NCBI GenBank assembly: GCA_016841905.1
Contig: JAENYF010000010.1
Location: forward strand, 1-64,000
Length of the DNA stretch: 64,000 bases
Reading direction: 5' to 3'
DNA from: Desulfoscipio geothermicus
GTDB lineage: Bacteria; Bacillota; Desulfotomaculia; Desulfotomaculales; Desulfallaceae
The translations under genes and the position numbers were made by a program. Below the pieces are notes generated by a model. That model searched no databases. It saw nothing but the letters and a program-made list of their open reading frames with translations, and had not been told where the DNA came from. Shown here in pieces: positions 15,720 through 53,680 of this stretch (position 1 is its first letter; each line of letters starts with the position of its first letter).

Positions 15720-16031
15720 AAGTTTTGTTGCCAAACTTGAATGTTAAACAGGCAATAAATTAGAAAAGCTCTATGATAACTTACTTCCAAAGAAAGCCCT
15801 GGCTTGTTAAGAAGGGCTTGTTTATCAAATATTAATAAACCTTGGTGTAAATCGGGTAGGAGGCTACTCATTAATTGAGATCTGCCACATCTACACCGTA
15901 AGCTTCCGGATTGTTTAGGGCTTCGGTTTGTATGGCAACCTCACCCAGCTTACAATGCCTGATGTGAGCTATCAACCCACACTAAGGACTTTCACCAATT
16001 AGACTGCGCCCATGCCCGGGCGCACCACCAC
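15720..16031. other. intergenic stretch, possibly an old element end
   Basis: No ORF supported. From about 15880 to 16030 the base composition is richer in GC than the flanks, and the stretch looks like structured non-coding DNA (for example GCCCATGCCCGGGCGCACC). I suspect a decayed insertion-sequence end but cannot identify one. Confidence 0.25.
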
Positions 16032-32040: not shown

Positions 32041-32042
32041 TA

Positions 32043-34702: not shown

Positions 34703-36250
34703 ATGGCACCTAGAAAAAAAAATAAATACAAACTGATTAGGTTTGGGTTATTGCTGTTGCTATCCCTGGCACTTGGAGTTATAGCAATGGCCATGGTAAA
34801 TAAAAACTGTTTTTCCAATCCAAACACGGCAACCGACATCCTACCCCCTAGTACTATAGTACGGAAACTAGAATTATCAAATTTAACAAAACAAGCTGCC
34901 ATGGCCAAATTAATTCAGTTGGAACAACAGCTGCAAAAACAACAAGTGAAAATAACATACCAAGAAGTTGACTATGAAGTTACTCTAGGTGCACTGGGTC
35001 TTAGCCTAAATGCCGCTAAAACCATCGAGCAGGCACTGGAAAATGCCAACCAAATGGGAATAATCAAGCGCTGGCAAGCCCGTTTGCATCTCATAGGACA
35101 ACAACCGGCCGTGATTAGCCTGGACCGTAATAAGACCAAGTCCGCCTTGCAAACAATAGTAAACCCTCTGTATATTCCAGCAATAAATGCCAGTCCCACA
35201 GTAAACAGCCAGGGGCAAGTAATGGTGCAACCGGCTAAGGATGGTTTTCGGGTGGAAATTGATCAGTTTACTAATCAATTATTAGAGATGGTAAATGATA
35301 ACAATCGCTTATCCCTAGAGCTAGCAACAGCCAAAATCAAACCAGAACTAAGTACAGAAGAGGTAACTAAATGGAACATAAAAGAAATGGTAGCCCATTA
35401 TACTACCCGTTTCAATTCGGCTTCAACCGGGCGCACCCAGAATATTAAGATCGCCGCCGACGTCTTAGACGATCTGGTCGTGCCACCAGGAGAGATAATC
35501 TCCTTCAATGATGTAGTTGGGCCTCGGGAAGTTGATAAGGGCTATCAAAATGCCGGGATTATTGTAGGCAATACATTGACGGAAGGTATAGGAGGCGGAA
35601 TATGCCAGGTGGTCACAACGTTATATAACGCTGTTTTGCTGGCTGATCTGGACATCGTCCAGAGGGGGAATCACAACATTCCCATTAGCTACGCCCCCAT
35701 CGGACTTGATGCTGCGGTTTCTTACGGCTCGTTGGACCTAAAGTTTAAAAACACTACCGATAGTCACATGTTGATTAAAACCAGCGTCGAGGGGAACTAT
35801 ATCACAGTAAAAATATATGGAAACAATGAAGAGAAAAAAAATATTCAATTAAAAAGCTGGGTGACCGAGACATTTGAACCAAAGGTGGTTTATAAGGTGG
35901 ATCCCTCTTTAGAACCCGAGCAGTCTAAAGAGCTCCAAAAGGGTGCCAGCGGGTACCGAGCCCAGGCACAGAGGATAGTGACTGTGAATGGCAAGGAAGA
36001 ACAGGAAGCACTGCCCAGCAGTTATTACCTGCCAGTGGAGCAAATAATTGCCGTGCAAAGCGAAACTCAGATACCAGGTCATGAACCTGTGGAAGAACCT
36101 CAAGAAGAGCCCGGGGAGGAACCTGAGGAGACTGCAAGTGAACCTAAAGATCAGCCCGAAGACAAAACAATGGACTCGGACCAAACAACGGTTCCCCCCG
36201 AACCTGAAACTGTTAATCCACTGCGGAACCCAACCACTGAAACAATTTAA
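34703..36250 (+). CDS. VanW-family exported protein
   Basis: A 515-aa membrane-anchored envelope protein. Residues 12-32 form an N-terminal anchor (LIRFGLLLLLSLALGVIAMA). A peptidoglycan-binding_4-like domain follows (TLGALGLSLNAAKTIEQALE onward), then the VanW domain with FNDVVGPREVDKGYQNAGII and GIGGGICQVVTTLYNAVLLA at about 270-320. The next region ends with a short G5-like part (KGASGYRAQAQRIVTVNGKE). The tail of about 65 residues is Glu/Pro-rich and acidic, probably disordered. VanW function is unknown despite its place in some vancomycin clusters; related exported proteins occur in germination/wall loci. AAAGGAG precedes the ATG. Confidence 0.9.
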   Translation: MAPRKKNKYKLIRFGLLLLLSLALGVIAMAMVNKNCFSNPNTATDILPPSTIVRKLELSNLTKQAAMAKLIQLEQQLQKQQVKITYQEVDYEVTLGALGLSLNAAKTIEQALENANQMGIIKRWQARLHLIGQQPAVISLDRNKTKSALQTIVNPLYIPAINASPTVNSQGQVMVQPAKDGFRVEIDQFTNQLLEMVNDNNRLSLELATAKIKPELSTEEVTKWNIKEMVAHYTTRFNSASTGRTQNIKIAADVLDDLVVPPGEIISFNDVVGPREVDKGYQNAGIIVGNTLTEGIGGGICQVVTTLYNAVLLADLDIVQRGNHNIPISYAPIGLDAAVSYGSLDLKFKNTTDSHMLIKTSVEGNYITVKIYGNNEEKKNIQLKSWVTETFEPKVVYKVDPSLEPEQSKELQKGASGYRAQAQRIVTVNGKEEQEALPSSYYLPVEQIIAVQSETQIPGHEPVEEPQEEPGEEPEETASEPKDQPEDKTMDSDQTTVPPEPETVNPLRNPTTETI

Positions 36251-36299
36251 TTCTTTTCGAAGAGCATCGAATTACAGATAGTTTGTGCATAAAGAATAG

Positions 36300-36327
36300 C
36301 CTCGGATTTAAAACCGAGGTTTTTTTG
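36300..36327 (+). terminator. terminator of the VanW gene
   Basis: CCTCGG pairs with CCGAGG around an 8-nt loop followed by TTTTTTT. Confidence 0.92.
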
Positions 36328-36524
36328 CTGCAAAAACCCCTTAGCGATTATTAAGACTTACTAAGCAAAGTAAATATAGAGCATTTTAGTAGCACATTAC
36401 CTAATTATACATACATTGGAATAAGGGTGAATAACACAGATAACACACATCTCAAAATGTTCAAAATCCAGCGAGGCAATAATTCTTTGGCAAGGAGGGG
36501 TGAAGAATAGACTACGTAAAGATT

Positions 36525-38486
36525 ATGGGAAGAGCAAAAGCAGCTGCCGGTGTAAGCAAGGCCATTTCCATCCAAGAAATCGGAATATCCGCTAATGGAA
36601 AGAAACTATTTTGTATACATGTAAGTCAAAATAAAGAACTGCGGCAACCGGGGAACTTTCAGAGCGGGTCTGAGCATGAGAATATCAAGGTTCCTGTAGT
36701 TGTAACTGCTGCTGTTCATGGTAATGAAACTTGCGGCACTGAGGCACTACTTCAGCTGTTAGAGTATTTCTCGAAGCAAGAAGAATTGCTCAGGCACCTT
36801 GACCTAATTCTTGCTCCTTGTGTAAATCCGGATGGTTTTGATAATAATACAAGATTTAACGGAAGGGGCTTCGATTTAAACAGGGATTTCATTACCCAGT
36901 CCCAGTCTGAAACCAAAGCCATGGCTGGCCTTATTGCATGTTATAACCCTGTCGTTCTATTGGATTTGCATGGATATGTTTGCAAGGATCGATATAAAAT
37001 AGGTGTAATTGAACCATGCACACCTCCCCATAATCCAGTCTACGAATATGATCTGTATTTGCCGAGTGCCCTGTTGATGGCAGAGTATATAGAAGGATAT
37101 CTTTTAGACAATAAAAAAATATTTGTTTCAAAGCGATATAAAGAAATGACCGGCACTTTTATTCCCTTCCGTGACATGACATCAGGCTGGGATGATTACT
37201 CACCATTCAGCATAGCCATGTATTCTATACTACATGGTACAGTTGGCTGTACCATAGAGGCACCAACAAATGAAGCTGATTGCATTTACTGGCTTTATTT
37301 TGCTGTTTTAGGTGCTTGTGAATTTATCATTAATCATAAACAAAGCTTACTAAGAAATCATAATGAGTTTTTTAACAGGGGAAAAGAAGGACGCCACCCC
37401 TTTCACCCTAAAGGGTTTTTCCCCGAGGCATATTTACTACGCAAAAAAACAGAAGATGAAGCTTCACTAATTAAATTAGTTAAGCATTTATATAGTAACG
37501 GAGTAAGTATGACTAAAAGTAGTAATGATAAATATTATGCTGATTTACATCAACCCAAGGCAGTTCTCGCCCACGCGCTCTTATGGACCGGTGAGGATCT
37601 TTCCCAACAGCCAATAAAAATGACGGATCTATGCGCATGGAGTTTGCCGCTTCTTTGGGGTGTGCAGGCTGTTCCCCTGTATAACTCAAAAAAAACCGCA
37701 GCAATTGAGATGAAGGCCATTCCCCACTGCCCTAAGGAATATGAGAAGGAACCAAGTACTATTCATGCAACTCCGTTTCATCTAGCCTCTCCCCAAAAAA
37801 TTGCCATTATTCGGGATGGTGGATTGTACGGAAAACAATCCCACTCAGGAGCAAGAGAAGCATTAACACGAATGGGTTTTTCAGTAACAGAACTCCACCC
37901 ACGAAAGTTGGCCGACAAATACGTTTTAAACAGCTTTAATGTCTTCATATATAACGGTTTTGAACAACTCTTTAATATTGCGGAGAAAATGCCTGAACGA
38001 TATAGACAATATGTATTTGAATCTCTCTCCCAACGGGAACATGGAGTTAAAAATATCACTGATTTTATTGATGCGGGAGGTTTGTTTATCACCATAGGGG
38101 CCGGAGGAGCCAGAGTAGCCAGAAATTTTCTTAAACTGACAAAAGTAAAGATTAATGTCAGCGGATGGAATAACAATGGAATTGTACGCATACATTATTT
38201 TCCCAACCAACTAACAGAAGGTTACTCAGAAATAGATATTGGCTTCGTTTACCGGCCAGTATGGTTCACCAGCAAGGAGGACACTGAAGTAGCTGCAGAA
38301 TATGCTTCTGGTCCAGACTCCTTGCTCGCAGGTTATTGGCCTGAACACCCAAAGGCAGAAGACCAAGCGGCCATTATTTCTGAAAAAAACGGACGGGTAG
38401 TATTGATCGGCCCCGAGATCTGCCACCGTGCACATCCCGAATATCTGTACCGGCTCCTGCTCAATGCCATACACCAGTATATTTAG
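36525..38486 (+). CDS. M14-family zinc carboxypeptidase with an extra C-terminal domain
   Basis: A 653-aa peptidase. The M14 motifs in order are AAVHGNETCGTEALL (zinc ligands His and Glu near residue 70), CVNPDGF and RGFDLNRDF (substrate residues), LLDLHGYVC (third zinc ligand His) and VGCTIEAPTNE (catalytic-Glu region). Residues from about 400 onward form an unrelated domain (SHSGAREALTRMGFSVTELH, AGGLFITIGAGGARVARNFL) that resembles glutamine-amidotransferase-like folds without an obvious nucleophile. No signal peptide is visible, so the substrate may be internal peptides or wall fragments. The ATG used lies 24 nt after the strong AGGAGGGG site; an in-frame ATA at 36507 is at ideal spacing, and the frame is open back to a TGA at 36501. 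Confidence 0.82.
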   Translation: MGRAKAAAGVSKAISIQEIGISANGKKLFCIHVSQNKELRQPGNFQSGSEHENIKVPVVVTAAVHGNETCGTEALLQLLEYFSKQEELLRHLDLILAPCVNPDGFDNNTRFNGRGFDLNRDFITQSQSETKAMAGLIACYNPVVLLDLHGYVCKDRYKIGVIEPCTPPHNPVYEYDLYLPSALLMAEYIEGYLLDNKKIFVSKRYKEMTGTFIPFRDMTSGWDDYSPFSIAMYSILHGTVGCTIEAPTNEADCIYWLYFAVLGACEFIINHKQSLLRNHNEFFNRGKEGRHPFHPKGFFPEAYLLRKKTEDEASLIKLVKHLYSNGVSMTKSSNDKYYADLHQPKAVLAHALLWTGEDLSQQPIKMTDLCAWSLPLLWGVQAVPLYNSKKTAAIEMKAIPHCPKEYEKEPSTIHATPFHLASPQKIAIIRDGGLYGKQSHSGAREALTRMGFSVTELHPRKLADKYVLNSFNVFIYNGFEQLFNIAEKMPERYRQYVFESLSQREHGVKNITDFIDAGGLFITIGAGGARVARNFLKLTKVKINVSGWNNNGIVRIHYFPNQLTEGYSEIDIGFVYRPVWFTSKEDTEVAAEYASGPDSLLAGYWPEHPKAEDQAAIISEKNGRVVLIGPEICHRAHPEYLYRLLLNAIHQYI

Positions 38487-38535
38487 CCATTAAAAGTTAA
38501 ACTCATTTTATTGCCACCCAACATATTTAACAATG

Positions 38536-38583
38536 CAAAAGACCAAGGAAACAAACGAAAAAATCGCAGTTCCCTGGTCTTTT
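38536..38583. terminator. bidirectional terminator between the M14 and NlpC/P60 genes
   Basis: AAAGACCAAGGAA can pair with TTCCCTGGTCTTT around a loop of about 20 nt, with an A-run on one side and a T-run on the other, between convergent genes. Confidence 0.7.
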
Positions 38584-38604
38584 CTTAATTGGTTGCAGAT
38601 AGTA

Positions 38605-39930
38605 TTATAAATAACGTTTGGCGGTAACGAACCTCGGTTGATAATAATCATATGACAATTTTTTTTCAACTACCCCGGCTGAAGGAACGTTAACCCAAAA
38701 TGCATCATTGCCACAGTATATTCCTACCATCGAATATGAGGATACCTGACCACCGGGTACAACGGAAAAGAAAATTAGATCACCTGGCTGTAATGCTTCT
38801 TTAGAAACAGTCTTTCCTAATTGAGCTAGTTTGGGGGCATCAGTTGCGCCTAAAGTAATCCCATTTTTCTTGTAAACATAATAAGCAAATTCTGAGCTAT
38901 TAAAAGTTAAAGTTCCTTCATTATATGGTGAAGCGTACTTAACTTTACCAACCAATGACTTTGCAGTTGAACAAATATTTGCCGCTTGATTATTATTTGG
39001 ATAGGAAGTTGAGTTATTCAGATCCAAACGCCGTGCTGTTACGTAATTAGCTTTATAGAAATCATAAGCCAGAAGCACTTTGTTGGCGCCTGCCTGTGAA
39101 GCACAGATGACCACTTGGAGGTTACCGGCATAGACACCTACAAGAGCTACTTTACCAGGATTTGCTTCTGTTGAGAAGAACACTAAATCTCCTCTCTGAA
39201 GTTTTTCTTTGGGTACATACTGACCTACCAAAACCTGATCCTTGGCATACATGCCGATATCAAATCCGAATTGTTTATATATATATCTTACAAAAGCAGG
39301 ACTTGTAAAGGTTAATGTATTTTCGTTAGTTGGATAACCAAACTTGGCAACACCAATTAATCTTTCAGCAAACTCTACAACCTCATCAGCTCTGGTTTTG
39401 GCTCCAAATGACATATAGCCCGGTATAACTCTGCGCGCGGTAGCATAATATGTTTTGTAATAAGGGTCGTTTAAATCTGAAATGACCACATTTAATCTAG
39501 TATCTGCCATATGGATAACCTTATTGTCCCCGTAATAAATTGCTACGTGAGTCGATGGTGCCTTGTCATTCAAATTGGAATCAAATAATACTAAATCACC
39601 CTTCTTTAGCTCACTTTTTGGGACGTAAGTCCCAAGCTCAATCATATGATTATTGTTGCGAGTATGCAGATCTATCCCATTCTGCAGAAAAACGTAATAC
39701 ACAAAGCCACCACAACCAAATTCGTAAGGATAAGTGTCCTTGTAGACGCTGTTATTATATGTAGCTTTCCCGATTAAACTGGCTGCAGTATCAACAATTG
39801 AATCTGCTTTCCGATCAACCAACTGCTGCTGGTATGACGTTAGTGCCTCAGCTGTGCCTGGACCGCCAACCAATAGCATACAAAAAGTAAAAATTAATGC
39901 ACTTACTAACGAGACAGCATATCTTACCAC
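38605..39930 (-). CDS. exported protein with three NlpC/P60-like repeats, only the first catalytic
   Basis: A secreted 441-aa protein: signal peptide at 1-29 (VSLVSALIFTFCMLLVGGPG), then three repeats of about 130 aa. Each repeat has an SLIGKATY-like start, a FVYYVF-like helix, a GDLVLF strand and a VAIYYGD strand, closing with YYATARR. In repeat 1 the catalytic pair is present: Cys73 in EFGCGGFVYYV and His128 in STHVAIYYG. In repeats 2 and 3 the Cys position is Ser (S210 in TFTSPAF, S345 in TFNSSEF) and the His position is Leu or Met, so they should be inactive, probably binding modules. A wall endopeptidase role is expected. Start GTG, 7 nt after GGAG. Confidence 0.85.
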   Translation of the reverse strand: MVRYAVSLVSALIFTFCMLLVGGPGTAEALTSYQQQLVDRKADSIVDTAASLIGKATYNNSVYKDTYPYEFGCGGFVYYVFLQNGIDLHTRNNNHMIELGTYVPKSELKKGDLVLFDSNLNDKAPSTHVAIYYGDNKVIHMADTRLNVVISDLNDPYYKTYYATARRVIPGYMSFGAKTRADEVVEFAERLIGVAKFGYPTNENTLTFTSPAFVRYIYKQFGFDIGMYAKDQVLVGQYVPKEKLQRGDLVFFSTEANPGKVALVGVYAGNLQVVICASQAGANKVLLAYDFYKANYVTARRLDLNNSTSYPNNNQAANICSTAKSLVGKVKYASPYNEGTLTFNSSEFAYYVYKKNGITLGATDAPKLAQLGKTVSKEALQPGDLIFFSVVPGGQVSSYSMVGIYCGNDAFWVNVPSAGVVEKKLSYDYYQPRFVTAKRYL

Positions 39931-43810: not shown

Positions 43811-44139
43811 TATGCCCCCCTTGTATAAACATGGTACAACTTAAAACCACATAACAAATCAGCGTTTAGGAATTATTTGTTTGGATATTATTTTATTTCT
43901 TTTAGTTAAAATATGTTTTTATGTATAAAAATTCCCCAACTTTAAAAAAATTTATTATATTTTACGGCTCGGCACAAAGTCCTATATTGTCATGCATAGT
44001 GATAACTTTACACTTACACTAATCAAGAATTAGTACCTACAGAAAGTGCTACACATATATTAATAGTTAGCATTGCAATTTTATGGCAGTGCGCACTTAA
44101 AACCATAAAAACGCAAAAGAGAAAGAGTGATGAACTAGG
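43811..44139. other. divergent promoter region between the PLP and Mur-ligase genes
   Basis: About 330 nt of AT-rich DNA separating the decarboxylase (leftward) and the first MurF-like gene (rightward). No operator or riboswitch was recognised. Confidence 0.35.
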
Positions 44140-45519
44140 ATGAAACAACTTTTAGTTGGTCAAATTCGCGAATTGATTGAAGGTCAATTAATACAGGGCT
44201 CTGAAGATTTGCCAATTCTACATGCAGTTTGTTACAGCAAGCAATTAAACAGCAAGAATACCATTATATTCGCACGATTTAAAAGAATGTTTAAATGGGA
44301 TACCGTGCAAAAATATATGCCTTGCGCTATTGTAATAGATAAACCCTTTGACAAGTTAAAGACAATTCAAGGATGTACTATAATAAAGGTTGCAAATCTT
44401 GAAAAAGCTTATTGGAAATTTGTTGACTATTATAGAAACCTTTATAACATCCCGGTGATCGCTATTACTGGTACAACCGGAAAATCAACAACAAAAGATA
44501 TGGTCAAACATATTCTCAAATATACCCATCGAGTACATGGTACGATCGCTTCCGCCAACGGTCGGCCTGGTCACTTGAATTATTTGCTAGGCATAGATGA
44601 GTCCACAGAGGTTGCCGTATTTGAAACTGCAGTTGGCAGACCGGGTGATATTACAGGTAGTTGCAAATATTTTAAACCCACTATTGGCGTCATAACCAAC
44701 ATTGGGGTATACCACCTAGATAACTGCAAAACCCTCGATGCATACATTAAAGCTAAAGCTGAAATAATCACTGCATTAGATAATAAGGGCGTTTTAATAG
44801 TTAATGCCGATGACGAAAACACAAAAATAATTAACCTTGCCCAATTTAAAGGACGCATCATCTATTTTGGCATGCATAAACCGGCAAATTTTTTCGCATC
44901 AAATGTCCGGTACGGGAAAAACGGTATGGATTTTTTGTTAACCTATGCTAACAGGACGTATCCTGTATACGTACCGGGTTATGGCACACATCAAGTCTAT
45001 AATGCCCTGGCAGCTTTAGCTGTTGTAAATGAACTAGGGATAAGCATGAAAGAGGCAGCCATACGGCTTAGGAATTTTAAAAACATTATTAAGCATCTTG
45101 AAATTGCTCCATGTATAGGTGGTTCAACGATCATTGATGATACGTGGAATTTGTCACCCAGCTCCTTAAAAGCAGGTTTGGAAGTTTTGCGTAATCTGGA
45201 CAGAAGCAAGAAAAAGGTCGCGCTATTAGGGGATGTAATTAGGCTAGGAGAATCATATCAGGAATATTATAGTCAATTAGGTCAAATTATTACAGATTCA
45301 GGTATAGATGTCTTTATTAGTTTCGGGACTTTGGCGGCAGAAATCGCTTCACAAGCTTCGGAAAAAGGATTTACTGGTACAATCTACTCTTTCAGGGATA
45401 TTGATGATTTGTATCTAGCCCTGCAAAAAAACTTAGATGAAAAGACCATGTTGCTGGTTCAGTGCTCCGCAATTAATAAACAAATGTTAGGTTTGGTTAA
45501 AAAATTACGCATTAAATAA
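44140..45519 (+). CDS. MurF-like amide ligase (Mur ligase family), complete
   Basis: A 459-aa ATP-dependent ligase with the three Mur domains. Domain 1 (1-100) is present. The ATP site is AITGTTGKSTTKDMVKHIL near residue 110; the central domain has NGRPGHLNYLLGID, AVFETAVGRPGDI and TNIGVYHLDN. The C-terminal domain starts near the IIDDTWNLSPSSLKAGLEVL motif, which matches MurF (DDTYNANPxSMxAAL). It forms an amide bond using an acyl-phosphate intermediate. The organism should have its true murF in the mur-fts cluster, and this copy sits among ATP-grasp genes, so an amino-acid ligase role in a special pathway is inferred. It is not followed closely by the next gene (180 nt, with a terminator). 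Confidence 0.82.
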   Translation: MKQLLVGQIRELIEGQLIQGSEDLPILHAVCYSKQLNSKNTIIFARFKRMFKWDTVQKYMPCAIVIDKPFDKLKTIQGCTIIKVANLEKAYWKFVDYYRNLYNIPVIAITGTTGKSTTKDMVKHILKYTHRVHGTIASANGRPGHLNYLLGIDESTEVAVFETAVGRPGDITGSCKYFKPTIGVITNIGVYHLDNCKTLDAYIKAKAEIITALDNKGVLIVNADDENTKIINLAQFKGRIIYFGMHKPANFFASNVRYGKNGMDFLLTYANRTYPVYVPGYGTHQVYNALAALAVVNELGISMKEAAIRLRNFKNIIKHLEIAPCIGGSTIIDDTWNLSPSSLKAGLEVLRNLDRSKKKVALLGDVIRLGESYQEYYSQLGQIITDSGIDVFISFGTLAAEIASQASEKGFTGTIYSFRDIDDLYLALQKNLDEKTMLLVQCSAINKQMLGLVKKLRIK

Positions 45520-45537
45520 AGAGCTACATCATTTTCT

Positions 45538-45570
45538 AAAACCTCGAAGCAAATCCGAGGTTTTATTTTT
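45538..45570 (+). terminator. terminator after the first MurF-like gene
   Basis: AAAACCTCG pairs with CGAGGTTTT, followed by ATTTTT. Confidence 0.85.
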
Positions 45571-45700
45571 ATATAAAATACTAATTTTGCCCAAGCCTGT
45601 CCAGTGATAACCACATTAAGGATTTATGCATAAATTAAAAGTGTTGTCAAAAATATTTTTTTATACAGGTATATGTCGTTGACAGAAAAGAGGTGGCGTT

Positions 45701-46777
45701 TTGATCATCGGTATGCTGCATCATCGCAGGGATCCGCAAAAAGTATTTAAATCCTATGCTTATGCCGCAGTGGCCAAAGCTGAGGGTGCAGAATTGCTTT
45801 ATTTTACCCCCAAAGCAGTAGACTTTGCACAACAAACAATTCATGGCTACGTATACGAAAATGGATATTGGCAAAAAAAGGATAGCCCTTTTCCAGAAGT
45901 AGTCTATAACGCGGGGAGTCCTGAAAAGCTAGATAGATCGTCAGAAATATTAGCTAAACTAAAAGAGTTAATTCCCTTCACAACTTATTCCATAGGTAAT
46001 AAAATGAGAGTTTATCAAAGGCTGAAGTCAGAAGGGGAGTTTATGCAATATCTTATTCCTTCTGTAATTATTCACTCGATAGGCAGATTTTTTAATAATT
46101 TTAAAATTTACCGTAAAGTTGTATTTAAACCGGTAAATGGGCGCAAAGGATTGGGTATAACCTACATTGAAAATGTTCGTGACCAGTACAACGTAAAGTT
46201 AGGTGAAACTGACCACCTGTTTAGCTATGAGGAGTTAAGCAATTTTGTTTCCCAAAAATTACGGGAAGAACCTTATCTGCTGCAGCCATACATTAACTGC
46301 AAAACCAAATCAGGGACGTCCTATGATATAAGGTTGCATGTGCAAAAAAACGGAGAAGGTGAATGGGTTACCACAGCCGTTTACCCGCGTTTTGGTCCTG
46401 AGGGGAGTATCGTATCCAATATCAACAGCGGGGGCTCCACCAACTATTTAGTGCCCTTCTTAAAACAGGAATTTGGCGAGGAGTATTTTAACATTAAACG
46501 CTACCTGGAACACTTTTCAATCCAGTTAGCTAGACACATGGACGAAGTGCAGCAAAAATACTTCAGTGAGAGAATCGATGAACTGGGCATTGATGTGGGC
46601 CTAGACGATTTGGGGAAAATATGGATTTACGAAGTCAACTGGCGCCCGGGCTGCCCTCCAACTTTTTATTTAGAGCTGGATGTGGTCAGGAATATGATTA
46701 AATACGCCATGTTTTTAGCAAGGGAACATAAAGATATATATAACCATGTTTCAGGAGGGGAGTCTGTTGGTATTTAA
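45701..46777 (+). CDS. YheC/YheD-family ATP-grasp protein
   Basis: A 358-aa ATP-grasp enzyme of the YheC/YheD group, a family linked to spore-coat and endospore loci. The N-terminal domain is followed by the ATP-grasp fold: RKVVFKPVNGRKGLGITYIE near residue 140-160 (ATP lysine and Gly-rich loop), EEPYLLQPYINCKTKSGTSY with DIRLHVQ near 200-220, and KIWIYEVNWRPGCPP near 305 (metal-binding Glu/Asn). ATP-grasp enzymes join a carboxylate to an amine. TTG start after AGAGGTGG. Its end overlaps the next MurF-like gene by 11 nt, so the two are almost certainly one functional unit. Confidence 0.85.
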   Translation: MIIGMLHHRRDPQKVFKSYAYAAVAKAEGAELLYFTPKAVDFAQQTIHGYVYENGYWQKKDSPFPEVVYNAGSPEKLDRSSEILAKLKELIPFTTYSIGNKMRVYQRLKSEGEFMQYLIPSVIIHSIGRFFNNFKIYRKVVFKPVNGRKGLGITYIENVRDQYNVKLGETDHLFSYEELSNFVSQKLREEPYLLQPYINCKTKSGTSYDIRLHVQKNGEGEWVTTAVYPRFGPEGSIVSNINSGGSTNYLVPFLKQEFGEEYFNIKRYLEHFSIQLARHMDEVQQKYFSERIDELGIDVGLDDLGKIWIYEVNWRPGCPPTFYLELDVVRNMIKYAMFLAREHKDIYNHVSGGESVGI

Positions 46778-47882
46778 CCCTTATGTAGAGAAACCGATCA
46801 TAGCTGTCACCGGGAGCGCCGGAAAAACCATGGTTAAAACAATGGTTTCCGCCATTCTCAGGACCAGATGGATTATATTTGAGTCTAATGACTATAACAA
46901 TACCACTGATAAAACCAAAGAGCATGCGGAGCAAATTAGTTTTATCCATCGCGCGGCCGTGCTGGAATACGGGATGGCTTATCCTGGCGTTATAACCGAG
47001 CATTGCCGGATCCTTCGTCCCAACATTGGTATAATTACCAATGTTGGTCTGGCACACATTGGTAATTTTGAATCCAAACTGGAAAATCTAGCCGCCGCCA
47101 AATCCGAAATAATTCACGGCATGCATCCCACCGGCATTTTAATTATTAATGCCGATGACCCAAATGCCAAACTATTAAGCACCCAAAGCTTCCAGGGTAA
47201 GCTGCTCAAGGTGGGAATTAAATCGGGTACTGATTACCGGGCTAGGCACGTGATATACACCAAGCAGGGGATGGAATTTATCGTTAAGTTCAAGGGCGAG
47301 GAATACACCTTTATGATTCCTGTGCTTGGCAGGCATAATGTAATTAATGCCTTGTTTGCAATCGCAGTTGGAAATCAATTGGGTTTCCTTCCGGAGGAAT
47401 TACAAAACGGGCTCAGGGACTTAAAGTGGCCCAAGCACAGGTTAGAAGATTATCATTTAAAAGATGACATTATGGTCATAGATGACACCGTTCATGCTCA
47501 CCCCCCGGCGATGAAAGTCGCCCTTGATGTGCTTGAGGAAATAGCAAAAGGGAAAAAAATTGCCATACTGGGAAGCATGCCGGAACTCGGTGACCGTACA
47601 GATCAAGACCATGAAGATGTCGGCAGGTACGCAGCCTCAAAAAACCTGGACTTTCTTTATACTTATGGCAATATATCCGTGCAAATAGGCCATGCCGCGA
47701 TAGAAGCAGGAATGTCGGCAGAAAATGTAAAACACATTACACCACTATACCGAAAAGTAATGCACCGGGAATTAGTGCAAATGATTGAGCCTGGAACCAC
47801 CATACTAGTCAAAGGTGCCAGCCGCTTAAAGATGTCCGATACTGTAGGTTTTTTATGTGAATATTTTCAGAAGGACGCTTAA
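46767..47882 (+). CDS. MurF-like ligase lacking the first domain
   Basis: A 371-aa Mur-ligase protein that begins directly at the ATP-binding domain: the P-loop AVTGSAGKTMVKTMVSAIL is only about 10 residues from the start, so the UDP-substrate-binding N-terminal domain of MurC-F is missing, as in the Mur half of cyanophycin synthetase and in CapB. Further motifs: LEYGMAYPGVIT, TNVGLAHIGNFESKLENLAA, INADDPN, VLGRHNVINALFAIAVGNQL and MVIDDTVHAHPPAMKVALDV. I use the TTG at 46767, 6 nt after GGAGGGG; the ATG at 46746 lies before that site. It overlaps the upstream ATP-grasp gene by 11 nt. Confidence 0.85.
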   Translation: MVFNPYVEKPIIAVTGSAGKTMVKTMVSAILRTRWIIFESNDYNNTTDKTKEHAEQISFIHRAAVLEYGMAYPGVITEHCRILRPNIGIITNVGLAHIGNFESKLENLAAAKSEIIHGMHPTGILIINADDPNAKLLSTQSFQGKLLKVGIKSGTDYRARHVIYTKQGMEFIVKFKGEEYTFMIPVLGRHNVINALFAIAVGNQLGFLPEELQNGLRDLKWPKHRLEDYHLKDDIMVIDDTVHAHPPAMKVALDVLEEIAKGKKIAILGSMPELGDRTDQDHEDVGRYAASKNLDFLYTYGNISVQIGHAAIEAGMSAENVKHITPLYRKVMHRELVQMIEPGTTILVKGASRLKMSDTVGFLCEYFQKDA

Positions 47883-47885
47883 CAA

Positions 47886-47923
47886 AACAGGTGGTAGACT
47901 TTGATAGCCTACCACCTGTTTTT
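47886..47923. terminator. bidirectional terminator between convergent genes
   Basis: AACAGGTGGTAG pairs with CTACCACCTGTT around a 10-nt loop, with A/T runs on both sides. It closes both the MurF-like gene and the opposite ATP-grasp gene. Confidence 0.92.
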
Positions 47924-47931
47924 GCTTTCGC

Positions 47932-49191
47932 TTATTTTTCAGGCATATGATTTTGGTCTTTCTGGATAATATACACACCCGAAAGTAAGAACTTAATTTG
48001 AGCCGCAGCTTGTTTTGCATTTTCTTTTGCTTCCTGCTCGGTGCTGCCTTTGGCTATAACATACGCGTACCTATCTCCCATAGAAAGAGGAGGGGTAAGC
48101 AACCTGCCCTTGCGCGGCTTAACATATACTTCTAAAACGCCGTGAGTTCTTAAGGCCTTTTTTTTACCAGTAACTTTCACTAAATAGCCAGTTTCCGAGA
48201 TAACTAGATATTGTGCAAAAACAGGTTGTTTAAATTTGGCCTGTAGATTCGGCTCTTGACCGAGGGATATTTTTAGCGTTTGCTCAACCAAATTGATACC
48301 AAAACCAAATTCAATTAATTTGTTCATACCTGCACCTGAAATGCGAGGGTTTATTTCAATTAGTTTCCATTCCTGATTTACTAGGCGCAATTCCAAGTGA
48401 CAAGCTCCTGACTCCATCCCGTGGAGTTTCACAATTGCACTCACAGTTTCCCGTAAACTGCGTAAAAAACCCACTTCCGGCTCGATCAACAAACTATAGC
48501 CAGTTACAATAAATTTTTTGTTAAAGGTAATCTCCTGCTCAATTATAGCAATAATATAAGTCTCCTGTTGGTATACAACTGCTTCAACTAGATATTGTGG
48601 GCCATCTAGATATTCCTCAACCAATATGGGGACACCAGGGTATTTTTTGTCCAGTAATTCCATATATCGTTCCAGTTTTTTTTCACTATTGATTACGTAA
48701 ACGTCTTTAGAACCAGTGGAATTAGGTGATTTTACGATAAACCTGGTTTGCTGGTTGTCTTCTATATTGAGCGTTATCCCGGTTAATTCGTCCGACAGAA
48801 CCTGATATTTAGGGACATACGGTGAATGCGCGAGAGCTTCACGGGAAAGAATTTTATCCTGCATTTTTATAATAGCCCGGGTGGAAAAACGGTTAACTCC
48901 GAACTCTTCGGCCATAAGACAGGCCGTATGACAATAAGGATCAACGAAACTAATAATACTGTGAATATCAAGGGCTCTTAAGGTAAGAGCTCTTATATTA
49001 TCGCGTATTTCTTCAATATCTGATAAATTGCATAATCGCATCAAATGGACATCAGGAAATTCAGAACGTTTTTCCAAAAAAGATGGACGGTTTGTCAGCA
49101 GCACTGTATAATACCCCAGTCGTTCTGCAGCTCTAATTGCTTCTCTGCTTGAACCGGATTTCTGGGTCTCAATGAACACTATTGTTTTCAT
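47932..49191 (-). CDS. ATP-grasp carboxylate-amine ligase, L-amino-acid-ligase type
   Basis: A 419-aa ATP-grasp_4-type enzyme like BacD-style L-amino-acid ligases or PurK-like ligases. The N-terminal Rossmann-like part begins TIVFIETQKSGSSREAIRAA. ATP-grasp motifs are TRFIVKSPNSTGSKDVYVIN, PILVEEYLDGPQYLVEAVVY, and GACHLELRLVNQEWKLIEIN followed by PRISGAGM (metal ligands E and N). A C-terminal domain of about 100 aa with KKALRTHGVLEVYVKPRKGR resembles the LAL C-terminal lid. Expected reaction: ATP-dependent dipeptide or amide formation. It is convergent to the MurF-like gene and could share its pathway. Confidence 0.85.
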   Translation of the reverse strand: MKTIVFIETQKSGSSREAIRAAERLGYYTVLLTNRPSFLEKRSEFPDVHLMRLCNLSDIEEIRDNIRALTLRALDIHSIISFVDPYCHTACLMAEEFGVNRFSTRAIIKMQDKILSREALAHSPYVPKYQVLSDELTGITLNIEDNQQTRFIVKSPNSTGSKDVYVINSEKKLERYMELLDKKYPGVPILVEEYLDGPQYLVEAVVYQQETYIIAIIEQEITFNKKFIVTGYSLLIEPEVGFLRSLRETVSAIVKLHGMESGACHLELRLVNQEWKLIEINPRISGAGMNKLIEFGFGINLVEQTLKISLGQEPNLQAKFKQPVFAQYLVISETGYLVKVTGKKKALRTHGVLEVYVKPRKGRLLTPPLSMGDRYAYVIAKGSTEQEAKENAKQAAAQIKFLLSGVYIIQKDQNHMPEK

Positions 49192-49315
49192 AGCTTAACC
49201 AATACCTCGCATCATAAACTTTACTAATCTACCGGAAGTTCAAAGCTTCAAATTATATTATTCAAAGCAAAGGCTAAATGTTTGACATTGGGCAAAGTCA
49301 AATGCATTTCTGGGC

Positions 49316-49345
49316 CAAAAAAATTACCCCTTTACCTGGGGTAAT
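49316..49345 (-). terminator. terminator of the 150-aa hypothetical gene
   Basis: ATTACCCC pairs with GGGGTAAT around a 7-nt loop, followed on the minus strand by TTTTTTT. Confidence 0.88.
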
Positions 49346-49391
49346 CCGTAAATATATGTTAGTTGTAATGTGATGGATATCAATACAATTA

Positions 49392-49844
49392 TTAATAAAA
49401 TTTCCCAGTAGCTATTAAAGACCCCTGGGGTACCTTGACAACCCCGCCTTGACTAAAGAAATTTGCTATAACAAATGATTGAACGGTGTCATTTCCGGCA
49501 GGTGTGGGTTGATCAACAAATTCAGCAACAAAGTAACGCTGAAAACTGGTACCGGCAAAAGTTCCTTTGCCCTCTACCCTAACCAAAGCATTATTACATA
49601 TCTTTCGGCAAGTCACACAGCTTATTTGACAGGCTTCGAACCTAAAACTCCTAGCACCATAATTCTCCTCTTTAAACTCCAGGGTCAGTTTAGAGTCGTA
49701 ACGCGGGTCTGCACTTACATTCACCTTATAGAGCAAGCTGCCCTTTATAGCTCTGGGGATGTGTGCAAATGTTACTTTAACTTTTTGTGCAAAAGCTTTA
49801 ATCGTTGAAGATGTAACCATACCACAGCAACTTTGAAGGCCCAT
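49392..49844 (-). CDS. hypothetical Cys-containing beta protein, 150 aa
   Basis: Unrecognised soluble protein, Ser/Gly/Val-rich and probably beta-sheet. Six cysteines stand out: two near the start (GLQSCCGMVTSSTIKAF) and a cluster FEACQISCVTCRKICNNALV near residue 75. The C-terminal half (GTFAGTSFQRYFVAEFVDQP, ANFFSQGGVVKVPQGSL) looks like a repeated beta-hairpin fold such as found in spore-surface or exosporium proteins, but this is only an impression. It has its own terminator and lies within the ligase region, so it could be a substrate or structural protein of that system. Confidence 0.6.
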   Translation of the reverse strand: MGLQSCCGMVTSSTIKAFAQKVKVTFAHIPRAIKGSLLYKVNVSADPRYDSKLTLEFKEENYGARSFRFEACQISCVTCRKICNNALVRVEGKGTFAGTSFQRYFVAEFVDQPTPAGNDTVQSFVIANFFSQGGVVKVPQGSLIATGKFY

Positions 49845-50180
49845 TCTTCTTTCTCAGCCCCTTTCTTTATTTAACCCATAATATTCTAAAAAAGTATAAA
49901 CGTGCTTCAACTGCACCGATTTATTAGACAATAACTAAAACAGTCTTTAATAAAAATTACTAAATCTCGAGTTATTAAAAAATAATTACCCCATTAACAT
50001 TTGTTGCAATAGCCTCGATAGTGGTAAATACACCGCAGGTACAACGAATACCCATTTTTCTCCCCCTTTCTGCATGTAATATATTCCCACAACCATAATA
50101 TTCAAAAAAAAGTCTAATCGTGCATGAACATACTTGAATATAATAAGTCAATTCAAATTAATTAAAACGGAGTTGGCGGT
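49845..50180. other. intergenic region holding the 26-aa ORF
   Basis: Apart from the 26-aa ORF on the minus strand I see only AT-rich sequence, presumably with divergent promoters for the 150-aa and YheC/D-like genes. Confidence 0.35.
49975..50055 (-). CDS. 26-aa small ORF, paralogous-looking start of the 150-aa protein
   Basis: ATG at 50055 preceded by GGGGGAG at about 5 nt. The peptide begins MGIRCTCGVF, then TTIEAIATNVNGVIIF. Its N terminus parallels the neighbouring 150-aa protein (MGLQSCCGMVTSS...), sharing the MG-x2-Cys-x-Cys/CG pattern. It could be a small peptide or a truncated paralogue. Too short for certainty. Confidence 0.4.
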   Translation of the reverse strand: MGIRCTCGVFTTIEAIATNVNGVIIF

Positions 50181-51461
50181 ATGAGAGTAAAGAAAGGAAG
50201 ATGGAGTCGTTACCAGATTTTAAGATCTGATAAAGAAATCTCTAAACACCTGACACAATCTGAGCTTTTAAATTCAGAATCGCTAGATATGTACATCAAT
50301 CGATACCAAAAGGTACAAATAATGCCATGTTATGGACATGTGCGAATTTTTATTTCTTCGATGGGACAGGGACAATACAAGGTACACGCTTACCGTAAAG
50401 AGGAAATGTTCAGCAATGTTATCGACTTACATGAATATCTAATCAATCGTGGCATACTGAAAAGTAAGCAATATTATGTTATTCAACCAAGTTTAAAAGA
50501 GGGCGAACGCGAGTATTTAGTAACAATGCAACGTATTGCTTTTACCCAGCAATGGGAAGCACAACTAAGCGAACTCAGACAGAACGCAAACATGGTGGCT
50601 TGTAACAATCTAGCCAAACTGGCAGTAGAATGCTTGGAGGAATCTTTGACCGAATATCTGACGGTTGTTGTGAAAATAATTATCGATCAAAAAGGTCAGG
50701 CATACGTGGCAGATATACAGGATCACCCTCCATCAAGCAAGTGGACACAGTACCAGGTGCTGAACGGCACTGGAAAAGATTTATACCTAGTTCCGGAAAC
50801 CCAACTTTTTGATGAGAGCTCGTTCTTTTATTTACTCCAAAAGCACAAGCAAATATTTATCAAACCTACTATTGGCCAGTTGGGGTTAGGAATCGCCCAG
50901 GTCACCTTAAAAGAAAATAATGTGTATAAAGTTCATTCCGGAAGGGTAACCAAGGAAATATCCGGGAAAAAACATCTAATTGATTATTTATTAACCAACT
51001 ATATATTAAAAAACCACTATCTTGTTCAACAAAAAATTCCACTGGCAAAAATAGAAGGCAACCCCATTGATATAAGAGTAATCACCCAGTGGGACCCTGA
51101 TTTTGATAATTGGTCAGTAAACGGCAAGCTGGTCAAAATAGCTCAAAAAGGTTATGTGGTTACCAACGTGGCCAGAGAGTTACTCTTGTTAGATGAAGCT
51201 TTAATGCGGGGAGCTATTGGCAATGCTCAAAACATTGAAGATGAGATTAATAGAGCTTGTATTGATATGTCCAGACGATTACATAAAAATTTTCCTACTA
51301 TAACCATCATCGGATTTGACTTAGGTGTTGACCAACAAGGTCATATTTGGTTCATTGAAGCCAACCTGAAACCGGACATCTTCATGTTTTATAGACTGGG
51401 AGATATGCAAATGTACCAAACAATAATCGATGGAATTAAAAATACAAAGGCCTTGACTTAA
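50181..51461 (+). CDS. YheC/YheD-like ATP-grasp protein with an internal degenerate duplication
   Basis: A 426-aa protein. Residues 186-426 are a YheC/YheD-type ATP-grasp domain: SSKWTQYQVLNG, then KQIFIKPTIGQLGLGIAQVT (ATP lysine and loop near 224-243), HYLVQQKIPLAKIEGNPIDI with RVIT (near 279-302), and GHIWFIEANLKPDIF (metal ligands near 390). Residues 1-185 repeat the same plan in a degraded form: GRWSRYQILRS at 6-16, KVQIMPCYGHVRIFISSMGQ at 44-63, QYYVIQPSLKEGEREYLV at 97-114 and KGQAYVADIQDHPPSS at 171-186. In the first copy the catalytic lysine and acidic metal ligands are not conserved, so it is probably a regulatory or substrate-binding pseudo-domain. Confidence 0.82.
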   Translation: MRVKKGRWSRYQILRSDKEISKHLTQSELLNSESLDMYINRYQKVQIMPCYGHVRIFISSMGQGQYKVHAYRKEEMFSNVIDLHEYLINRGILKSKQYYVIQPSLKEGEREYLVTMQRIAFTQQWEAQLSELRQNANMVACNNLAKLAVECLEESLTEYLTVVVKIIIDQKGQAYVADIQDHPPSSKWTQYQVLNGTGKDLYLVPETQLFDESSFFYLLQKHKQIFIKPTIGQLGLGIAQVTLKENNVYKVHSGRVTKEISGKKHLIDYLLTNYILKNHYLVQQKIPLAKIEGNPIDIRVITQWDPDFDNWSVNGKLVKIAQKGYVVTNVARELLLLDEALMRGAIGNAQNIEDEINRACIDMSRRLHKNFPTITIIGFDLGVDQQGHIWFIEANLKPDIFMFYRLGDMQMYQTIIDGIKNTKALT

Positions 51462-51733
51462 AAGACCATAGTAATTAATATAATAGTTAAATAATTTAAT
51501 AACATGCTCCGAGTTAAAAATACCTAAAGCGCAAGCTATGGCTTTTAACCAATGGGTGCAGGGGGAAACATCTGTGCCTCCCTTTTGGAAAGGAGATTTT
51601 ATTTCAGAGACATCTTACGAATTTGTCTCGAGTTAATTTGTAGAAATAAAGCAGTTTCCAAGAGGAAACTGCTTTATTTTCCATTAATCTTAAGATTGAC
51701 AACATTAAGAACACTGCGAGGTTTAACTATAAC
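51462..51733. other. intergenic region with terminator
   Basis: No supported gene; the short plus-strand ORF here lacks a good ribosome site. A terminator lies at 51648-51675. Confidence 0.35.
51648..51675 (+). terminator. terminator hairpin before the HdrD-like gene
   Basis: AAAGCAGTTTCC pairs with GGAAACTGCTTT around AAGA, followed by ATTTT. Confidence 0.85.
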
Positions 51734-53680
51734 ATGCGTATATTGATATTTTCTTCATTATTAATTTTTTCTCTAGCCTATTTTTCCTACCAAATTTACA
51801 GGCGCATTTGTTATATCCGTCTGGGGAAACAAGAAGATTACAGCGAGCCTGTAGCAAGAATAAAATATTTATGTCAGGCTATTTTCCTGCAAAAGAAAAT
51901 TGCAGATTATCCCCTTTCCGGTACTTTACACTTTTTTATTATGTGGGGCTTAATAATTTTAATGTTCAGCAGCTTGGACATGGCTGCCTTGGGTCTTTTT
52001 AATGCAAAAATTTCCTGGTTGGAGTACCCGTTTTTTTTGTTCCTAAGAGATCTGTTTATCCTATTGTTAGTCATTGGGATTATAGGTTTTGTTTTGCGCC
52101 GCCTGGTCTTAAAACTCTTAAAACAAGACTGGCTACACAGTTCTTCAAAAACATACACAATCTTGATTTTAATATTCATCATTGACTGTAGCTTACTTAG
52201 CTATTTCGCTGTTTATACTGCACTAATGGAATGGCCCTTGCCTGGTGCCTGGCTGGTTAATCCAATTGCTTACGGGCTTGCTTCCCTAAGTGAGCCAGCC
52301 ACAGAAATGCTGCTGGGAATAAGCTGGTGGTCACACTTTCTAACCATCTTTGCTTTTCTACTGGTCATTCCAAATTCTAATTATTTACATCTTGTCTTTG
52401 CACCATTTAGTATTTACTGGCGTTCTTTGCGCCAGAGAGGCTCCCTTATGCCGGTTGCACTGCCAGGTACAAATAAACAAACCTGCGGTGTAAAGCTGGT
52501 AAATGACTTCACTAGAAAGCAACTGCTTGATACCTTTAGCTGTTTATTATGCGGGCGCTGCCACCGCGAATGCCCGTCTGAACGCAGTAATGAGCGGTTA
52601 AAGCCCAAACGGCTCAATGGTTTCATTCGCGCTTATTTAGAGGACGAGGGCCATAAGCTATTAGCTGGTCAGCCATCTATCAAAATGGCCGGTGACCTTT
52701 TTTACCATGATTTTATTTGGAGCTGTACCACCTGTGGCAGTTGTAACGAAGTTTGCCCCGTATCAGTAGATCATATCTCCAAGATTATTGATTTACGGCG
52801 CGGTATTATTTCTGAGCAAGAATGCATTCCTGCTGCCATTCAGGAGTTTTTTAACAATGTAGAACACGCAGGTAATCCCTTTGGCAGATTGCGCAAATTA
52901 GAGCAAGACTATGCATGGGCCGGTGATTTGGAAATTCACAGTCTGTCAAAGAAACCTCATGCCGAATATTTGTTTTATATCGGCTGTCAGGGAACCTTTG
53001 ACACATCAACCGCAAAAGTAGCTGTAGCGTTGGCTAAAATTATGCAGCTTGCCGGGGTGGATTATGCAATTCTCGGGGATGAAGAATGGTGCTGCGGGGA
53101 AACAGCCAGAAGAATGGGTAATGAGCTTCTTTTCCAAAATACAGTCAAGAAGAATATTGCCCTATGGCAAGTGTATGGGGTTAAAAGAATTATTACCTTC
53201 TGTCCCCACTGCTTTAATACCCTAAAAAATGAATACCCTCAATTCGGAGGAAATTATGAGGTCGTCCCCCACCCTGTTTTCTTAGCAGAACTGCTGAAGC
53301 AAGGCTTACTGCCCATCGCCCGCTCGCAGGATATTGTGGTTACTTACCATGATGCCTGTTATCTGGGACGCTATAATGATATTTTTGAGCACCCCAGACA
53401 AGTATTAAGGTCCATACCTGGGGTGCTTTTAATAGAGATGCCCCGGTGCCAAAAAGAGTCCTTTTGTTGTGGTGCAGGCGGAGGTCGTTTCTGGACCAAG
53501 TCAAGCAAGGAAAACCCGATCAGCGTGAACCGGGTTAAAGAGGCCCTAGCTACGGAGGCAACAACGGTAATCACCGCCTGCCCTTATTGCCGAAATACTT
53601 TTGAGGGCGATATGTTAGTTCAGGACATTGCAGAATTGTTGCTCTCTACTTTCCCAACAAATGATATTTTACCTGCCTGA
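51734..53680 (+). CDS. membrane-bound HdrD-like Fe-S reductase (NarI-like cytochrome domain plus CCG domains)
   Basis: A 648-aa electron-transfer protein. The N-terminal 235 residues carry five or six membrane helices with conserved His (GTLHFFIMWG, ISWWSHFLTIFAF, NYLHLVF), like the NarI/HdrE heme b domain. Two [4Fe-4S] motifs follow: CLLCGRCHRECPSERS and CTTCGSCNEVCPVSVDHI. The C-terminal half has two CCG cysteine-rich domains (EEWCCGETARRMGNELLF and KESFCCGAGGGRFW) as in HdrD/GlpC, binding a further Fe-S centre. Such fused proteins in anaerobes and sulfate reducers connect quinone or ETF/acyl-CoA dehydrogenase electrons to the membrane. The acyl-CoA ligase downstream supports a link to fatty or organic acid oxidation. 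Confidence 0.88.
   Translation: MRILIFSSLLIFSLAYFSYQIYRRICYIRLGKQEDYSEPVARIKYLCQAIFLQKKIADYPLSGTLHFFIMWGLIILMFSSLDMAALGLFNAKISWLEYPFFLFLRDLFILLLVIGIIGFVLRRLVLKLLKQDWLHSSSKTYTILILIFIIDCSLLSYFAVYTALMEWPLPGAWLVNPIAYGLASLSEPATEMLLGISWWSHFLTIFAFLLVIPNSNYLHLVFAPFSIYWRSLRQRGSLMPVALPGTNKQTCGVKLVNDFTRKQLLDTFSCLLCGRCHRECPSERSNERLKPKRLNGFIRAYLEDEGHKLLAGQPSIKMAGDLFYHDFIWSCTTCGSCNEVCPVSVDHISKIIDLRRGIISEQECIPAAIQEFFNNVEHAGNPFGRLRKLEQDYAWAGDLEIHSLSKKPHAEYLFYIGCQGTFDTSTAKVAVALAKIMQLAGVDYAILGDEEWCCGETARRMGNELLFQNTVKKNIALWQVYGVKRIITFCPHCFNTLKNEYPQFGGNYEVVPHPVFLAELLKQGLLPIARSQDIVVTYHDACYLGRYNDIFEHPRQVLRSIPGVLLIEMPRCQKESFCCGAGGGRFWTKSSKENPISVNRVKEALATEATTVITACPYCRNTFEGDMLVQDIAELLLSTFPTNDILPA

Follow-up and report, generated by a model that had tools for sequence, protein, structure and literature searches.

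Five amide-ligase genes in the Desulfoscipio geothermicus window

The window analyzed here is a 64,000-nucleotide stretch of Desulfoscipio geothermicus (contig JAENYF010000010.1, positions 1 to 64,000), taken from a genome of 3.08 Mb in 91 contigs that is 93% complete. Its positions 44140-51461 hold a cluster of five intact open reading frames (ORFs) of amide-ligase type, identified by ORF translation and assigned to families with Pfam and NCBIfam (Table 1). This agrees with a first-pass annotation, made from the sequence alone, which had placed two MurF-like ligases, two YheC/YheD ATP-grasp proteins and one L-amino-acid-ligase-like (LAL) protein within 7.3 kb. Here, "MurA-like" denotes the longer MurF-derived ligase at 44140 and not the enolpyruvyl transferase, "MurB-like" denotes the truncated Mur ligase at 46767 and not the peptidoglycan enzyme of that name, Yhe2 is the second YheC/YheD protein, and hyp150 is a protein of 150 amino acids.

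Table 1 Ligase genes of the window and the genes of the surrounding block.
Feature	Position	Strand	Evidence
VanW/G5 protein, probable block edge	34703..36250	+	Pfam VanW 168 bits, G5; adjoins ligases in L012
M14-type zinc carboxypeptidase	36525..38486	+	Pfam Peptidase_M14 62 bits; 69% identity to L012 7966-9966
Secreted-looking protein, three NlpC/P60 domains	38605..39930	-	Pfam NLPC_P60, 3 stretches
MurA-like, MurF-derived ligase with altered N-domain	44140..45519	+	Pfam Mur_ligase_M 135 bits; TIGR01143 248.6 bits
YheC-type ATP-grasp amide ligase, start TTG	45701..46777	+	Pfam PF14398 (ATPgrasp_YheCD) 210.4 bits
MurB-like, truncated MurF-type ligase without N-terminal domain	46767 (or 46746)..47882	+	Mur_ligase_M 125, Mur_ligase_C 62 bits
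LAL ATP-grasp protein	47932..49191	-	LAL_C2 69.5 bits + ATP-grasp_4
hyp150, cysteine-containing beta-rich 150-amino-acid protein	49392..49844	-	no Pfam/NCBIfam family
Yhe2, YheC/YheD-type ATP-grasp	50181..51461	+	PF14398 185.3 bits, 2 stretches

Both YheC and Yhe2 far exceed the 26.8-bit cut-off of PF14398, and the N-terminal part of Yhe2 aligns to part of the same profile. The YheC and MurB-like genes overlap. If the latter starts at TTG 46767, just downstream of a GGAGG motif, the overlap is the 11 nt that the first-pass annotation reported, while the alternative ATG at 46746 would extend it to 32 nt. A scan of 43800-51800 for sigma-70-type promoters and terminators returned 33 and 7 matches, compared with 25.6 and 6.4 in shuffles, and was not used.

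No mur, fts or ddl gene is present among the Pfam-scanned neighbors of the ligases, again as first described. The genome contains eight Mur_ligase_M matches: two in the window, four on contig C10, one on C38 (a MurT-like protein under its family cut-off) and one on C46. Canonical murE, murF, murD and murC lie together at 59-68 kb of C10, and this MurF (L002) scores 428.3 bits with the MurF model TIGR01143. Because the canonical set is encoded there, the window Mur ligases are additional enzymes and not the organism's only MurF, which would have counted against the first-pass interpretation.

MurF-derived ligases that lack the MurF N-domain signature

Neither window Mur ligase reaches the TIGR01143 cut-off of 288.6 bits, with the longer protein at 248.6 and the truncated one at 250.5. 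The P-loop GxxGKT/S, the AK(S/A)E lysine and the IDDT motif, whose functional roles are assigned from general knowledge, are kept in both proteins and in the consensus of each clade. Consensus sequences were compared for 30 MurA-like proteins, 20 MurB-like proteins and 24 MurF-family proteins, the last being the best matches in the window genome and in genomes of its phylum, with one of them, L002, confirmed as MurF. The signature common to these 24 proteins lies in the MurF N-domain and is UDP-binding. The first-pass annotation had reported one MurF-like protein without the UDP-binding domain, and the whole N-domain is indeed absent from the MurB-like group. The longer ligase needs a correction: an N-terminal domain is present in it, and what the consensus of the 30 clade members lacks is the signature.

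A tree of 101 rows places all 30 MurA-like rows together (support 99) and recovers a second group of 40 rows (support 99), made up of the 20 MurB-like proteins and 20 truncated Mur ligases from other genomic settings. The larger group holding both clades (support 100) takes in seven of the 24 MurF-family comparison rows; the other 17, including L002, fall outside. This is a quick tree with long outgroup branches, and its L112 row comes from a longer ORF with an unchecked start. The organism's own MurF belongs to neither Mur group. The Mur ligase of another locus, L056 (G043:C3), is sister to the MurA-like clade; numerous YheC/YheD-type ORFs are arrayed around it, and the stretch also holds a D-alanine--D-alanine-ligase-like gene. 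A smaller YheC/YheD array occurs in L130.

Descent from MurF raises the possibility that these enzymes modify spore peptidoglycan, building stem peptides or cross-bridges of the cortex or germ-cell wall that the NlpC/P60, M14 and VanW proteins would process. The NlpC/P60 and M14 proteins do match murein peptidase models, although below cut-off, and L056 combines its Ddl-like gene with a Mur ligase and a YheC/YheD array. However, with the N-domain missing from one ligase and its signature lost from the other, binding of a UDP-N-acetylmuramic acid (UDP-MurNAc) peptide is unlikely on sequence grounds, and a complete mur set is present elsewhere in the genome. We therefore regard this explanation as quite unlikely; none of the ligases of the cluster is expected to depend on UDP-MurNAc.

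Fusion of YheC with the truncated Mur ligase

In loci L013-L017, L019, L097, L098 and L114-L118, YheC and the truncated Mur ligase are fused, and the fused L013 protein, of Bacillus ectoiniformans, matches the Pfam families YheCD, Mur_ligase_M and Mur_ligase_C. When the truncated Mur ligase was used as query in a single scan of named genomes, it yielded eight loci, from Sporotomaculum, Bacillus (three), Calidifontibacillus and Sporosarcina (three). YheC and LAL are encoded near the truncated Mur ligase in all eight, and in six of them one ORF of 724-812 amino acids spans YheC and the Mur ligase. Mean column identity across eight fused proteins is 72%. The ATP-grasp part precedes the Mur part, as in cyanophycin synthetase, but the two parts come from other families. 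When a profile of the fusions was compared with solved structures, MurF structures ranked far ahead of cyanophycin synthase, and the ATP-grasp half had no solved match except a weak one to tubulin-tyrosine ligase (E 0.0098). A PDB search with YheC gave no match at E 0.01, and the predicted structure of the fusion has a predicted local distance difference test (pLDDT) score of 56. ORFs of about 800 amino acids that join a truncated Mur ligase to an ATP-grasp-like part are also seen in L105 (8489-10921), L051 and L108; in the L105 protein the Mur part precedes the ATP-grasp-like part, opposite to the arrangement in the YheC-Mur fusions.

Conservation and co-occurrence of the ligases

Co-occurrence was assessed in 299 genomes of the class Bacilli. 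The truncated Mur ligase was found in 45 of these at E 1e-72, a threshold chosen to shut out MurF. YheC was found in 28 at E 1e-50, divided by a gap in identity into a strong set of at least 43% (22 genomes, 43-59%) and six weaker matches (33-36%), and LAL was found in 27 at E 1e-60. LAL is present in 21 of the 22 strong-YheC genomes, always on the same contig and less than 4 kb from YheC (hypergeometric p 7e-26); in the remaining one, G486, only a 62-residue LAL match is seen around YheC. None of the six weak YheC genomes has LAL. The truncated Mur ligase is joined to YheC in 10 of the 22 genomes (nine fused, one adjacent), and these ten loci also encode another MurF-derived ligase, from which the N-domain signature of MurF is missing. 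Eleven genomes carry the LAL-YheC pair without a truncated Mur ligase. Thus, because the LAL-YheC pair is nearly constant and the truncated Mur ligase accompanies it in part only, LAL-YheC is the firmest unit of the cluster and the Mur ligases are modules. The first-pass interpretation would have been refuted if homologs never co-occurred in other genomes; YheC and LAL do co-occur, within 4 kb, in 21 of the 299.

In a sample of 299 genomes from the window's own phylum, 286 match the truncated Mur ligase at E 1e-30, presumably in most cases through MurF itself, and six reach E 1e-70.

Gene content was then tabulated for 28 loci (the window, L012-L019, L050, L094, L097, L098, L114-L118 and L121-L130), picked for a truncated Mur ligase or a LAL-YheC pair, so that the counts are conditional on this choice and include several close relatives. 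Outside the tabulation are L131-L134 and the other-setting loci; ten of the eleven pair-only genomes were fetched (not G560). LAL occurs in 27 loci, YheC in 26, the truncated Mur ligase in 18, a MurA-like ligase in 18, NlpC/P60 in 14, a CotZ-like ORF in 12, Yhe2 in 9, hyp150 in 7, and M14, VanW and CapA-like genes in 2 each; the YheC genes of L094 and L126 and the LAL gene of L129, seen in genome searches, were missed here by the ORF overlap filter. All 18 loci with YheC and a truncated Mur ligase have LAL, 17 have a MurA-like ligase (L050 does not), and 14 have NlpC/P60 (not L018, L050, L094 or L097). Since YheC, the truncated Mur ligase and LAL recur together in 18 loci, in both Clostridia (Sporotomaculum) and Bacilli by NCBI taxonomy, their grouping is not due to chance. 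No title on this cluster was found in searches of the open PMC library; an amidoligase survey may mention parts of it, and we do not claim that it is absent from print.

Enzymes of the LAL family form dipeptides, including bioactive ones, and the cluster is patchily distributed, as might be expected if its product were a small secreted peptide metabolite such as an antibiotic, a signal or a siderophore-like compound. However, no recurring exporter or regulator was noticed in the loci, which were viewed without a systematic test, and synteny across two classes, together with the CotZ link described below, is ill-suited to an accessory metabolite. We give this explanation scarcely any credence.

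Truncated Mur ligases also occur in other settings. Among those inspected, five stand alone beside a CapA-like (PGA_cap) gene (L099, L100, L101, L104 and L106), assigned by Pfam in L104 (251.5 bits) and by resemblance in the other four; a stand-alone truncated Mur ligase with a CapA-type gene is a possible simpler polymer system. Others are fused to a different ATP-grasp-like part, or lie beside repeated genes that we presume to be glycosyltransferase-like, one of which was scanned and had no NCBIfam match. In L052 (10261-11199), a PdaB-type sporulation polysaccharide deacetylase (191 bits, cut-off 237.4) adjoins the truncated Mur ligase.

The cluster is linked to spore formers

The first-pass annotation had pointed to a spore association of YheC/YheD proteins. 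Two lines of evidence link the cluster to spore formers: the sporulation gene spoIVA, and CotZ-family neighbors in part of the loci. A spoIVA match (PF09547) is present in the window genome and in 210 of the 299 Bacilli-class genomes. All 45 genomes with a truncated Mur ligase have it (p 2.5e-8), as do all 22 strong-YheC genomes (p 3e-4) and all 27 LAL genomes (p 4e-5). It was also found in ten further genomes (five phylum-sample genomes at E 1e-70, G018, L012, L015, L016 and L018), so that every examined genome holding a truncated Mur ligase at E 1e-70 or better has spoIVA.

A CotZ-like ORF lies near YheC in 13 loci; the two adjoin in 12 of these, and in L116 about 4.4 kb separates them; the one in L015 was found separately and is additional to the 12 tabulated above. 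Nine of the 13 match the spore coat family PF10612 at E 0.01. When compared singly, the L098 protein scores 44.4 bits (cut-off 24), those of L016 and L017 fall just under the cut-off, and that of L097 has no match.

These associations also bear on a cyanophycin-like storage polymer of vegetative cells, which could be suggested by the combination of ATP-grasp and Mur modules, carried by relatives in one chain and arranged as in cyanophycin synthetase (PMC9262961). Against it stand both the spoIVA association and the CotZ neighbors. No storage-specific evidence was found, although cyanophycinase-type genes were not searched for. Cyanophycin synthetase itself was rejected as a component of the window genome, where no protein exceeds the TIGR02068 cut-off. 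We consider such a storage role very improbable.

A larger block around the ligases

Among named relatives, Sporotomaculum syntrophicum (L012), placed in the class Clostridia by NCBI taxonomy, is the nearest found; its genes are ordered VanW, two MurA-like, M14, MurB-like, Yhe2, NlpC/P60, YheC, LAL, two hyp150 and Yhe2. Because this syntenic block includes VanW, M14 and NlpC/P60 genes, with window counterparts at 34703-39930, the locus is larger than first described. In the window NlpC/P60 protein, which has a signal-like N-terminus as judged by eye, only the first of the three repeats keeps the motif cysteine. Twelve such proteins, including this one, were inspected by eye and have two or three repeats with the same cysteine pattern; those of L017 and L019 and the second of L117 are outside this set.

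The hyp150 protein has no Pfam or NCBIfam match at E 0.01, and a search of the PDB at E 0.001 with its predicted structure (pLDDT 76) returned no similar fold. An endospore-appendage subunit was considered because of a resemblance in the N-terminal cysteine pair; with no PDB match at that threshold and no Pfam match for the window protein, this identity is unsupported. What looks like the remnant of a second hyp150 gene lies on the minus strand, immediately upstream of 50181, with an intact counterpart at L012 16882-17367.

Coat proteins such as the CotZ-like protein or hyp150 could alternatively serve as acceptors, their side chains or C-termini receiving single amino acids or short peptides from the ligases in the manner of tubulin-tyrosine-ligase-like enzymes, and with no free polymer being made. 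Weak matches of YheC and Yhe2 to the tubulin-tyrosine-ligase profile, along with the structural match of the fusion profile noted above, are consistent with this, as are the CotZ-like ORFs near YheC and the presence of hyp150 inside seven of the 28 loci. However, each candidate acceptor is missing from some of the clusters, G304 has three hyp150 relatives in ligase-free stretches about 3.4 kb long, and a dipeptide ligase plus several Mur ligases would seem to exceed what tagging needs. Protein modification is, in our view, an unlikely explanation.

Two further genes next to the ligases were set aside as pathway members, since each occurs in one of the 28 loci, the window itself: a pyridoxal phosphate (PLP) decarboxylase at 42356 and an ORF of 696 amino acids (40269-42359, minus strand). 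The two overlap by 4 bases; the latter has no Pfam or NCBIfam match, and we take it to resemble a PLP enzyme. Downstream of the cluster, a molybdenum/tungsten cofactor riboswitch (51495-51611, plus strand; RF01055, 62.4 bits, cut-off 36) precedes an iron-sulfur protein gene at 51734, and the next transcription unit is therefore probably separate from the ligase cluster. Elsewhere in the window, FeoB (31252-33434, plus strand) is split into a GTPase ORF and a membrane ORF, with the same split in L012 at 93-95% identity, and a group II intron fragment (D1D4-3; RF02001, 54.2 bits) lies at 15885-15967 on the minus strand.

A proposed amide-ligation pathway in sporulation

The first-pass annotation had suggested a spore-coat or storage peptide made without ribosomes. 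The genes that it described are confirmed, a conserved multi-ligase locus is supported, and the interpretation is supported in part: spoIVA and CotZ-family neighbors favor the spore over storage, while the product and substrates are inferred. We propose that the cluster specifies a pathway of non-ribosomal amide ligation that operates during sporulation, forming a peptide or isopeptide polymer of the spore envelope, and give this an even chance of being correct. The proposal builds on the observed enzyme families, conserved synteny, fusion, loss of the N-domain or its signature, spoIVA association and CotZ neighbors in part of the loci; the catalysis, substrates, order of steps, spore location and timing outlined here, and the polymeric or oligomeric nature of the product, are proposals.

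LAL and YheC would form the core of the pathway, with the two Mur-ligase subfamilies as added modules. LAL would join two amino acids into a starting dipeptide, which YheC would extend at its carboxyl group. The truncated Mur ligase, paired with or fused to YheC, could then add a residue through an acyl-phosphate, by analogy with the M domain of cyanophycin synthetase. If YheC and the Mur ligase alternate on one growing peptide, as this analogy suggests, their coupling and fusion would be explained. The longer MurF-derived ligases may add further residues, and the resulting peptide or short isopeptide polymer would be built into the spore envelope, with the secreted NlpC/P60 protein trimming it.

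Several observations weigh against this proposal. Twelve of the 22 strong-YheC genomes have no truncated Mur ligase adjoining YheC, and in 35 of the 45 genomes with a truncated Mur ligase it lies away from such a YheC. The cluster is rare in the sample of the window's phylum (2 of 299), with YheC and LAL beside a Mur ligase only in the window genome and G043 among the stretches read. The spoIVA survey of that phylum covered the genomes with a match and gives no background rate, and in the Bacilli-class sample four of the six weak YheC genomes (33-36% identity) have no spoIVA match. The p-values given above ignore shared ancestry. CotZ-neighbor counts likewise stand without a background rate for such a neighbor, and no CotZ-like gene was found next to the ligases of the window, L012, L013, L014, L018, L050 or L094. 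Finally, of three sigma-factor patterns, a sigma-K-like pattern preceded 10 of 61 cluster genes in a first set, compared with 3 of 127 (p 9e-4), after the spacer had been narrowed from 14-18 to 15-17, and three of these ten hits came from three close Sporosarcina loci. In five held-out genomes it was not enriched with either spacer (0 of 26 compared with 1 of 41), and the sigma-K signal is not counted as support.

A more specific version can be put forward tentatively, although we think it less likely than not: many spore formers would carry on the spore surface an undescribed, non-ribosomally made isopeptide polymer, made by a YheC-Mur synthetase convergent on the cyanophycin-synthetase layout, in which a YheC/YheD ATP-grasp enzyme is combined with a MurF-type ligase without the nucleotide-sugar domain, primed by a LAL-made dipeptide and elaborated by the second MurF-derived family. 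Pairing of YheC with LAL and Mur ligases in a conserved locus suggests a concrete activity for YheC/YheD proteins, namely carboxylate activation and peptide extension. If the proposal is true, spore surfaces of many Bacillota would bear peptide material that is not ribosomally encoded, with a bearing on spore resistance and adhesion, and the cluster would provide new amide-polymer synthetases.

Comparison with known systems

MurF is the closest characterized Mur ligase to the window Mur proteins, which differ from it in scoring under its cut-off, in an N-domain that is absent or without signature, in their location away from the C10 mur set and in forming separate clades. The LAL protein has both the ATP-grasp core (PF13535, 48.2 bits, cut-off 27) and the LAL_C2 domain (PF18603, 69.5 bits, cut-off 29.4) of its family. 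PgsB is a Mur-type polymer synthetase, and a likeness to PgsB/CapB is seen in the members of the truncated-Mur clade that adjoin CapA-like genes. With the PgsB model TIGR04012 (cut-off 222.7), the longer window ligase scores 16.8 bits and the truncated one is not listed at E 0.01.

PgdS, the poly-gamma-glutamate hydrolase of Bacillus subtilis, is described as having a signal peptide of 32 residues followed by three NlpC/P60 repeats, the second of them active (PMC5880399). Compared by description, the window NlpC/P60 protein has three repeats and, by eye, a signal-like N-terminus and a single cysteine-bearing repeat, but this is the first. By analogy, the likeness hints at an extracytoplasmic substrate with gamma- or isopeptide linkages.

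PF14398 matches were found also in a B. subtilis control genome, and we know of no LAL or Mur partners of the B. subtilis YheC/YheD proteins. In the cluster, by comparison, YheC is paired with LAL and fused or coupled to a Mur ligase. B. subtilis YheC is listed as an ATP-binding spore coat protein of unknown function (PMC7352945), and the B. subtilis proteins are associated with the coat and with expression during sporulation.

A close parallel in layout is the cyanophycin synthetase CphA1 (TIGR02068), in which main-chain extension is carried out by an ATP-grasp (G) domain and additions to the side chain by a Mur-like (M) domain (PMC9262961). The first-pass annotation had seen equivalent halves of this enzyme in the adjacent genes. 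Its analogy gains from the relatives such as L013, where an ATP-grasp module and then a Mur module lie in one chain, in place of the two overlapping genes of the window. "Equivalent", however, overstates the resemblance: with TIGR02068 (cut-off 850 bits) the longer and truncated Mur ligases score 78.8 and 67 bits, far below their MurF scores, so that the Mur half is MurF-like over CphA-like. A YheC/YheD-type ATP-grasp enzyme replaces the G domain, no CphA N domain is matched, and the ATP-grasp-Mur pair here is part of a multi-ligase locus.

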